Source: Candidatus Staskawiczbacteria bacterium RIFCSPHIGHO2_02_FULL_42_22
GTDB taxonomy: Bacteria > Patescibacteriota > Minisyncoccia > Minisyncoccales > Staskawiczbacteraceae
NCBI GenBank assembly: GCA_001820175.1
Contig: MHOT01000026.1
Span: forward strand, 1-38,790
DNA length: 38,790 nucleotides
Reading direction: 5' to 3'
Made by a program: the position numbers and the translations under genes. This document shows positions 15,850 to 37,893 of this stretch, piece by piece. The stretch's first letter is position 1; each line of letters opens with the position of its first letter. The notes beneath the pieces were generated by a model. That model ran no database searches. It was not told where the DNA came from and was given only the letters and a program-made list of their open reading frames with translations.

Positions 15850-15883
15850 GTAGCGCCAACCTTCAGGTTCGGCGCTCTTTTTT
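15850..15883 (+). terminator. Intrinsic terminator
   Basis: GTAGCGCCAACcttcagGTTCGGCGCT then T7. Confidence 0.8.
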
Positions 15884-15954
15884 TACTTCGTCATCGCGAA
15901 CCGCAGTGAAGCGATCTTTTTAAAAAAATCTAACTATTAGATTGCTTCGCTCTA

Positions 15955-16132
15955 TGGAACAAACATTATGAAACCGCACTAAACTCGCCGCAGGTTTGGC
16001 AATATTGGGCGGCTTGGAGCAAAAAGTTTGTGAGGCGTAGCCGAAGCTACGCCGAACAAACTTTTTGTGAAACCTGCCCAAGATTGGCAAATCCGGCAAG
16101 GGTTGGAGTGCGGTTTCATAATGTTTGTTCCA
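15955..16132 (+). mobile_element. 178-bp palindromic element, copy 1 (TGGAACAAACATTATG-arm type), flanked by TA
   Basis: TA|TGGAACAAACATTATGAAACCGCACT...AGTGCGGTTTCATAATGTTTGTTCCA|TA; exactly 178 nt. Confidence 0.88.
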
Positions 16133-16175
16133 TAGCTCGCAATGACAACGTTGACCAAACCCTAACCCCTAGACG

Positions 16176-23418: not shown

Positions 23419-23829
23419 CTATAATAATAAATCTAAAAATTCTTCTACGGTTAATTCTGCTTGTTCAATAATTGACTTTATGGACATCACATCCAGAAAC
23501 CGCACTTAAGTTGCCGGCGGTTTGGCAGTATTGGGCGGCTTGGAGCAAAAAATTTGTGAGGCCTAGCCGTAGCTACGCCGAACAAATTTTTTGTGAAAAC
23601 TGCCCAAGATTGCCAAATCCGGCAAGACTTGGAGTGCGGTTTCAGGATGTGATGTCCATAAGGTCTTTGGATTAAGATCTTTTCTGTGAAAGGGAATGGT
23701 TACTCTTAAATGGGATTTTTCAGGGTGACGAAGTTGAACATGGCTCCCAGATTGGTGATATTCGTAAAAGCGACCTCTTTTTAATGCTCTCAATACCAAT
23801 AACGAAGGAATCCTAGGGAGTTTTGGCAT
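23419..23829 (-). pseudogene. hicA: hicA toxin gene split by in-frame 178-bp palindromic element
   Basis: MPKLPRIP...GSHVQLRHPEKSHLRVTIPFHRKDLNPKTL + element + KSIIEQAELTVEEFLDLLL*; frame kept across the insert but TAG (23563-23565) and TAA (23506-23508) within it. Confidence 0.85.
23481..23658 (+). mobile_element. 178-bp palindromic element, copy 2 (TGGACATCACATCC-arm type), flanked by TA, inside hicA
   Basis: TA|TGGACATCACATCCAGAAACCGCACT...AGTGCGGTTTCAGGATGTGATGTCCA|TA; exactly 178 nt. Confidence 0.9.
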
Positions 23830-33174: not shown

Positions 33175-34332
33175 CTACAATTCCCCATTTTTTATTCTTG
33201 CCCTAATCCCCTCAACCACTCCATTAAAATAATTTACATTATGAAAGGTGATTAACTTTAGGGCCGTAATCTCACCGGCTCTGAGCAAATGGCAAATGTA
33301 GTCCTTTTTATAGTGCAAACACACGTCACACACACACCCTTTATCCAGCGGCTCACGTTTTTTTAAAAATTTAACTTGCCTCATATTTAATTTTCCTTCA
33401 CTGGTAAAAGCGACGCCGCGACGAGCGTAGTGCGTTGGAATGGTACAGTCAAAAGTATCAACTCCGGCTTTGATAATATTTTCCAAATCATCCAACTTGC
33501 CAATACCCAGCAAATGTCGCGGCTTTCTTTCTGGTAATTCGGCTATGACCCAAGCCAACATCTCTGATATTATTTTTTTGTCGCTGCCAAATTCCCCGCC
33601 AATCCCAAAACCATCAAATGGCAGCGACCCAATAAATTTAGCGCTTTCCTGGCGCAGGTCCTTAAACCGGCCGCCTTGGACAATACCATATAGCGCCTGA
33701 TTACTCTTTTTAACCTTCAAGCACACTTTCGCCCATTGATGCGTTTTTAACAAAGAGTTTTTCGTATACTCATAATCAGCTAAAGGTGCAGTACATTCGT
33801 CGAAGGCAAAAATAATATCAGCGCCAATTTGCTCCTGGATTTTTATGGACTCCTTGGGACCGATAAATAATTCCCTGCCATCAACCGGTGAACGAAAAAA
33901 AACTCCGTCCTGTCGGATTTTTATCTTTTTGGGCTGGGCGCCAATCTTAATTTGCTCCCGAAGATCAGCATCCGATCCCATGCGGTCTTTTGAATTTATT
34001 ATTTTACCCAAATTCAAATCCTGGCCAAAACCCAAGGAAAACACTTGGAAACCGCCCGAATCGGTCATGAGCGGTTTTTTCCAATTCATGAATTCGTGCA
34101 AACCGCCGGCTTTTTGAATCACTTTTTCACCTGGTTTTAAATGCAAATGGAAGGTATTGGAAATCAATATTTGACTTTTGGTTTCCTCAACTTCTTTGCT
34201 GGTTAACGTTTTTACCACGGCTTGCGTTGCCACAGGAACTAAACACGGGGTCTCAACGACTCCGTGTGATGTTTCTATAAATCCCAATCGGGCATTACTG
34301 ACTTTTGATTTTTTTAAAATTTTAAAATTCAT
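33175..34332 (-). CDS. tgt: tRNA-guanine transglycosylase
   Basis: LMTDSGGFQVFSLG; DRMGSD; FAFDECTAP; CVCDVCLHYKKDYICHLLRAGE. Confidence 0.97.
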   Translation of the reverse strand: MNFKILKKSKVSNARLGFIETSHGVVETPCLVPVATQAVVKTLTSKEVEETKSQILISNTFHLHLKPGEKVIQKAGGLHEFMNWKKPLMTDSGGFQVFSLGFGQDLNLGKIINSKDRMGSDADLREQIKIGAQPKKIKIRQDGVFFRSPVDGRELFIGPKESIKIQEQIGADIIFAFDECTAPLADYEYTKNSLLKTHQWAKVCLKVKKSNQALYGIVQGGRFKDLRQESAKFIGSLPFDGFGIGGEFGSDKKIISEMLAWVIAELPERKPRHLLGIGKLDDLENIIKAGVDTFDCTIPTHYARRGVAFTSEGKLNMRQVKFLKKREPLDKGCVCDVCLHYKKDYICHLLRAGEITALKLITFHNVNYFNGVVEGIRARIKNGEL

Positions 34333-34890: not shown

Positions 34891-35254
34891 CACGACTTAT
34901 GGACATCACATCCAGAAACCACACTCCAAGTCTTGCCGGATTTGCCAATCTTGGGCAGTTTTCAAAAAAAATATGTTCGCCGTAGCTTCGGCTACGCCTC
35001 GCATATTTTTTGTTCCAAGCCGCCCAAGATTGCCAAACCGCCGGCGACTTTAGTGCGGTTTCTGGATGTGATGTCCATACGCAGTTGCGTCATTGCGAGG
35101 GCATCGCAATGCCCGAAGCAATCTCTCCTCATCTTTAGATTGTCCCGATTGCGAAGCGATCGAGGATCCTCGACAAATCGGGACTTCGTCGCCCTTCGAC
35201 AAACTTAGGACTCTTCGCAATGACGATGATGTTGATTTAACTGCGTAGGTCGTG
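34891..35254. repeat. BIME-like palindrome split by 178-bp element
   Basis: CACGACT[TA-element-TA]CGCAGTTGCGTCATTGCGAGG...CTTCGCAATGACG...AACTGCGTAGGTCGTG. Confidence 0.7.
34900..35077 (-). mobile_element. 178-bp palindromic element, copy 3 (TGGACATCACATCC-arm type), flanked by TA
   Basis: TA|TGGACATCACATCCAG...CTGGATGTGATGTCCA|TA; exactly 178 nt. Confidence 0.9.
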
Positions 35255-35263
35255 ATTTACTTA

Positions 35264-36010
35264 TCAGAATTTTGCCCAAGAATTTTGTTGATAATATTGC
35301 CATGGCCGCATCTGCTCAACCTGGGCTTTTTTAAGAATCATATCTTGAATATGCAATGCGGATTTTTTCTCAATAGCCGGCAAAAAAACGGTGTCTTTGT
35401 GCTCAAAGTTCTCATTTTGACCCTCTTCCCCGGAAATGGTAATCACAATATCGCTCATGCCCAGAATTTGATCCAACAAACTTCTTTGAATTTTAACATC
35501 TTGGATGTGGCGGTAAGGAATGACGGTTATATCTTCTGAAATTATGGAACAAACATTATGAAACCGCACTCCAAGTCTTGACGGATTTGCCAATCTTGGG
35601 CAGTTTTCACAAAAAATTTGTTTGCCGTAGCTACGGCTACGCCAAACATATTTTTTGCTCCAAGCCGCCCAATATTGCCAAACCGTCGGCAACTTTAGTG
35701 CGGTTTCATAATGTTTGTTCCATAGCCCCTTTTTAATTTTTAAATTTTTCTGGGCAATGAAAATTCCGTAGTGAATGTACTCAAGCCAACCGATGGCAAA
35801 CACCAAAACCAATGCAAATAACAAAAAGGCCAAAAAAAGAAGTAGCACATTAGCAGTCACTGCAACATAAGTTACCGGAATATAGTTTAGTGAAACTAGT
35901 CCCGCAAACAGCATGGGTACCAGCACAAAAAATACTCCACTTTTACGCAAAATCAGCATAAAAAGTGTTTTCTGCCCCAGTGGATGGTACGTATGAATAT
36001 TTTCTTCCAT
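35264..36010 (-). CDS. bPH2 (YdbS-like) membrane protein containing an in-frame 60-codon palindromic element insert
   Basis: Two TM segments, KIKKGL[WNKHYETALKLPTVWQYWAAW...RLGVRFHNVCSI]ISEDITVIPYRHIQDVKIQRSLLDQILGMSDIVI. Confidence 0.85.
   Translation of the reverse strand: MEENIHTYHPLGQKTLFMLILRKSGVFFVLVPMLFAGLVSLNYIPVTYVAVTANVLLLFLAFLLFALVLVFAIGWLEYIHYGIFIAQKNLKIKKGLWNKHYETALKLPTVWQYWAAWSKKYVWRSRSYGKQIFCENCPRLANPSRLGVRFHNVCSIISEDITVIPYRHIQDVKIQRSLLDQILGMSDIVITISGEEGQNENFEHKDTVFLPAIEKKSALHIQDMILKKAQVEQMRPWQYYQQNSWAKF
35545..35722 (-). mobile_element. 178-bp palindromic element, copy 4 (TGGAACAAACATTATG-arm type), flanked by TA, inside bPH2 CDS
   Basis: TA|TGGAACAAACATTATGAAACCGCACT...AGTGCGGTTTCATAATGTTTGTTCCA|TA; exactly 178 nt. 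Confidence 0.92.

Positions 36011-36498: not shown

Positions 36499-37893
<1,395 letters not shown>

Follow-up and report, generated by a model that had tools for sequence, protein, structure and literature searches.

Results

The bPH2 gene and its neighbours

The window, that is the whole stretch of 38,790 nucleotides analysed here, is one contig (C26) of a draft genome of 821 kb in 30 contigs (G000). Two named relatives of its bPH2 protein come from Candidatus Staskawiczbacteria MAGs, and the host appears to be a Staskawiczbacteria-like member of the Patescibacteria. The gene under study and its neighbours are:

33175..34332, minus strand: queuine tRNA-ribosyltransferase (TGT) gene, downstream neighbour of bPH2 (Pfam TGT, E 4e-119)
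35264..36010, minus strand: gene for a bPH2-domain membrane protein, which carries the insertion (open ORF of 248 codons and Pfam bPH_2 match)
36499..37887, minus strand: ATP synthase beta-subunit gene, upstream neighbour of bPH2 (Pfam ATP-synt_ab, E 1.5e-74)

The 248-aa protein scores 34.7 bits against Pfam bPH_2 (PF03703; cut-off 22), and a Pfam profile search returned no second match to this domain in the genome. Within the genus the domain was detected in 6 of 13 genomes and was absent from the other 7, and the gene is thus accessory. The orthologue in G004 likewise has the end of a beta-subunit gene upstream, as read by eye.

A 60-codon insertion at a TA dinucleotide

The sequence-only reading had described a palindromic element forming a 60-aa in-frame insert in this ORF. 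We found the quoted segment at residues 97-156, and the frame runs open across all 248 aa, free of stops and frameshifts as had been stated. The alignment with orthologues that it had proposed was run against the proteins of G001, G004, G005, G006 and G010, all of the same genus. They align on both flanks, and residues 97-156 are missing exactly from all five, the gap falling directly after an invariant Gly-Leu; none naturally carries the 60 aa, and the insert occurs in one genome only. The empty target site is thereby placed at the protein level, from five same-genus orthologues, and the alignment indicates that the segment is a clean insertion and no naturally variable region. The insertion was delimited as follows:

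35545..35722, minus strand: MITE of 178 nt, end type A (TGGAACAAACATTATGAAACC...), in the sense orientation as read in bPH2 (quasi-palindrome; multicopy; missing from orthologues)
35543..35544, no strand: TA target-site duplication, copy 1 on the plus strand (sequence; TA...TA borders in most other copies)
35723..35724, no strand: TA target-site duplication, copy 2 on the plus strand (sequence; TA...TA borders in most other copies)
35543..35722, minus strand: 60 inserted codons, residues 97-156, WNKHYET...NVCSI (translation and orthologue alignment)
35543..35590, no strand: inverted repeat, arm 1 (inverted-repeat analysis)
35677..35724, no strand: inverted repeat, arm 2 (inverted-repeat analysis)

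The inverted repeat (35543-35724) has TA at both termini and arms of 48 nt that are 81% complementary. Folded as a single strand, this repeat reaches -108 kcal/mol (z = -15 versus dinucleotide shuffles), an energy matched by none of 200 such shuffles. Because one TA is the target's own, the gene gained 178 + 2 = 180 nt, or 60 codons. When the flanks are rejoined keeping one TA, an ORF of 188 aa results, reading ...NLKIKKGLISEDITVIPYRHIQDV... / KKGLISEDITVIPYRHIQD. The earlier statement that removal of 180 nt restores bPH2 therefore holds, with the amendment that the element proper measures 178 nt and that 180 is the element plus the duplicated TA. Outside the insert the ORF is intact and the family-conserved residues are retained in the orthologue alignment. 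The bPH2 domain itself is split near its start, at about profile position 18: the Pfam match covers profile positions 19-77 here versus 2-77 in an orthologue without the insert, and to call the protein intact, as had been done, was therefore too strong.

A family of hairpin elements with several end types

A DNA search with the element gave 75 local matches in G000, many of them to a second arm or to fragments, from which 37 copies or fragments were delimited (25 near full length), the sequence used being the surroundings of each copy; most copies are bordered by TA on both sides. Complete copies were also found in G010 (three) and G007 (one). The element is short, lacks a transposase gene, occurs in many copies and has terminal inverted repeats and a target-site duplication, which together define a MITE. 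Given a multicopy, TA-duplicating element with delimited ends, and orthologues that lack the segment, the original reading of the segment as a mobile-DNA insertion was right. The window holds three further copies, each recognised by similarity to the family:

34898..35079, plus strand: family copy 2, end type B, between the bPH2 and TGT genes
23479..23660, minus strand: family copy 3, end type B, with no confirmed gene across it
15953..16134, minus strand: family copy 4, end type A, within another repeat (GCTTCGC...GCTCGCAATGAC)

Several end types are mounted on one similar core, namely A (TATGGAACAAACATTATG or ...TTACA), B (TATGGACATCACATCCA), C (TATAGAACAAACATTATCAC) and D (TATAGAACACACATTCCA), and the end sequences include TATGGACATCACATCC, TATGGAACAAACATTATG and TATAGAACAAACATTATC. 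B ends occur in G000 and G010 only, out of 247 genomes of the order. Paired A and C ends were found only in G000, G010 and G007. Nearly all complete copies carry the same end type on both arms. Of the 71 pairs in the consensus hairpin, 31 show at least one two-sided compensatory change among 27 aligned copies, counts that include shared ancestry, and the aligned copies indicate that the hairpin is maintained by many paired arm-to-arm changes across the family. One way to account for matched arms of several types would be arm-to-arm correction within the quasi-palindrome after recombination had mixed the ends. An 81-bp copy (C12:49169-49249) has a B end on the left and a C-like end on the right; it is possibly an intermediate of such correction.

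Some copies are associated with other repeats or with each other. Two copies on C27 (17783-17964 and 17997-18178) point the same way, with 32 nt between them, and share a flank (CCTCAAAGTTCTTAAAAGTATGGAAAAGTAAC), for which reasons one of them probably arose by tandem duplication and not by transposition. Four copies (C8:2040-2266, C13:4942-5168, C18:68332-68635 and C23 near 39850) contain a nested insert with a second inverted repeat (GAGACGGGGCGAAT...ATTACGCCTCGCGTCT), which is a second small palindromic repeat within the MITE. A separate repeat, GTCATTGCGAG...CTCGCAATGAC, adjoins one copy in the window (35090-35230) and was the target of another (about 15880-16160).

Source of mobility

Members of the IS630/Tc1-mariner family and their MITEs duplicate a TA target and have inverted repeat ends. 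Both features are seen in the present element, which has no transposase gene of its own, and the TA duplication suggests that an IS630/Tc1-type transposase mobilised it in trans. The one IS630-type transposase ORF of G000 (341 aa, on C30; L111:958-1983) has its own ends, TATAGCCTGTTAAAAACAAAATGTCGC, which are unlike those of the MITE. An autonomous partner with MITE ends was not found when terminal inverted repeat patterns were searched across the genus and across 247 genomes of its order; such repeat pairs in the genus are spaced by at most about 300 nt, and among the DDE_3 and DDE_Tnp_1 families of the genus no transposase is bounded by MITE ends. For lone matches to TATAGAACAAACATTA in G203, G023 and G035 no second end lies near enough to pair, and they were set aside as probable chance matches. 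An autonomous copy may simply not be present, may have fallen into a gap of the assembly, or may have died out. Since many MITE families have no surviving autonomous partner, its absence weakens only the claim on the source of mobility.

Copies within and near genes

By ORF inspection, 2 of the 37 copies in G000 are clearly intragenic, the open one in bPH2 and one at C27:20007-20188 (L101:3823-4195). The latter introduces a stop and ends a 23S_rRNA_IVP (PF05635) gene early; its joined flanks give a protein of 124 aa (Pfam E 1e-23). Set against the near full-length copies, 2 of 25 amounts to a strong depletion if coding density is at least 80%, a density that we assumed, with genes recognised by ORF inspection. 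Five other candidates were rejected as intragenic: C18:83218 precedes a start codon that has a plausible ribosome-binding site, C19:20411 is placed at the stop codon of an ORF identified by eye as NuoB/hydrogenase-subunit-like, and the ORFs overlapped by C10:60493, C12:8475 and C26:34898 appear spurious.

A clear in-frame case is thus limited to 1 of 37 copies in G000, to which G007 adds a C-terminal one: there a PrmC-like ORF (L098:352-1212) closes with the element-encoded residues WNKHYENRTP. In the same ORF the peptides FGFAQGK and PALSGAEG are encoded by small palindromes, CCCTTCGGCTTCGCTCAGGG and CCCTGAGTGGAGCCGAAGGG, perhaps another, smaller translated palindrome.

Coding potential of the element

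The frame used in bPH2 is free of stops in 17 of 29 copies and is the commonest open frame of the element; over all six orientations and phases together, 18% are open. From these two figures, a copy entering a gene stands a fair chance of keeping the ORF open. Across the family no excess of third-position variation was seen in the encoded frame (p = 0.54). The bPH2 copy shows zero private substitutions relative to the family, which indicates that it is young in comparison, and the lack of stops therefore says nothing on selection. Two structure models built from a three-sequence alignment were of low confidence (mean pLDDT 46 and 51), with the insert as the lowest stretch (about 24-34). A search of Rfam, group I and II intron families included, gave no match for the element. 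With regard to the earlier proposal that a palindrome had become protein sequence, the part that stands is the presence of 60 in-frame sense codons; a lasting status as protein sequence does not follow, given zero private substitutions and no coding signature, and the gene may be without function or expression.

Discussion

The account that we consider very probable is that a non-autonomous, TA-duplicating MITE inserted into the bPH2 gene at a TA that separates the Gly-Leu from the Ile-Ser codons; the result is a single ORF of 248 aa, whose 60-aa insert is passive and sits close to where the bPH2 domain begins. Mobilisation in trans, translation and the cause of persistence are its predicted parts. 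The ORF reads through because the gain of 178 + 2 nt makes 180 nt and the favoured sense frame is stop-free, and the insert is predicted to be translated. Persistence would then reflect a young insertion in an accessory gene rather than a useful insert, and tolerance of the insertion may reflect the dispensability of the bPH2 gene.

The most serious rival accepts the same DNA event and parts from this account only over whether the protein product functions. It holds that the gene is in effect a knock-out, the frame being open by luck, while the insert or an mRNA hairpin (through RNase III cutting or stalled translation, for example) abolishes function and decay is too early to show. We regard this as a real possibility that falls somewhat short of probable. 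A domain interrupted near profile position 18, a hairpin of -108 kcal/mol and the lack of the gene from 7 of 13 genus genomes are all in its favour, zero private changes would have left no time for decay, and a sister copy cuts short the IVP gene. However, the remaining ORF is intact with its family-conserved residues kept, and a Rickettsia guanylate kinase with a comparable insert is both translated and active (PMC2229807). At the other extreme, the insert could have been adopted as a useful protein part with its open frame maintained by selection, as the stop-free frame and the element-encoded final residues of the PrmC-like ORF in G007 might suggest. We give this little credence, as the codon-position signal is absent (p = 0.54), private changes are zero, the insert is found in one genome only and it forms the least confident stretch of a poor structure model.

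Two further explanations would remove the insert from the protein or from the genome altogether. The very stable hairpin could be taken to mean that the segment is lost from the RNA, as an intron-like or cleaved hairpin, leaving a protein without it; but the element has no Rfam match, group I and II introns included, and is unlike known self-removing RNAs, and we judge such removal to be highly improbable. A draft of 30 contigs with a high-copy repeat also invites the suspicion that repeat copies were wrongly joined and that the junction is artificial. Misassembly is nevertheless very unlikely, indeed the least probable of these explanations, because the flanks belong to one gene, are collinear to the residue with five orthologues and each carry a matching TA, and a chance join would not produce such a match.

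Our preferred account, a passive MITE insertion with read-through, overturns nothing, as palindromes lying in frame in proteins have been on record since 2000. What it offers is a cleanly delimited case in a candidate-phylum bacterium, with exact ends, a TA duplication and five orthologues without the insert. The family moreover constitutes a natural experiment on the persistence of hairpin elements in very small genomes and on the joint change of their arms. A literature search of incomplete coverage yielded no account of MITEs in Patescibacteria.

The Rickettsia palindromic elements (RPE; Ogata et al. 2000, 2002) measure 105-146 bp, form long hairpins, carry an open frame and are found in many protein genes as in-frame inserts (PMC10969869, PMC2229807). 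Likened by description, both they and the present MITE are short palindromes with long hairpins and an open frame that occur in frame in genes. RPE are shorter than the 178 nt found here and belong to a different phylum; their target duplication is given as unknown and their TA ends as variable (PMC2229807), whereas most copies here have a TA duplication. Moreover, about half of RPE lie in genes, as opposed to 2 of 37 copies here, and a frequent in-frame location is not seen in this family. We think it unlikely that the family is a Patescibacterial counterpart of the Rickettsia coding palindromes, with an open favoured frame, entry into genes without breaking them and a lasting 60-aa insert in bPH2.

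Short bacterial MITEs are described that form stable hairpins, end in TA and carry ORFs joined in frame to genes (PMC2229807). ERIC/RU-1, Correia/NEMIS and YPAL/RU-2 are hairpin MITEs of about 100-200 bp with in-frame gene fusions reported for all three, and ERIC and Correia have TA ends with target duplication (PMC2229807). The hairpin and the in-frame fusion are as in our element, again likened by description and in unrelated hosts, while the several end types on one core set the present family apart from ERIC, Correia and YPAL. Set beside RPE, ERIC, Correia and YPAL by their descriptions, the MITE is a new family of a known kind, in Staskawiczbacteria-like Patescibacteria.
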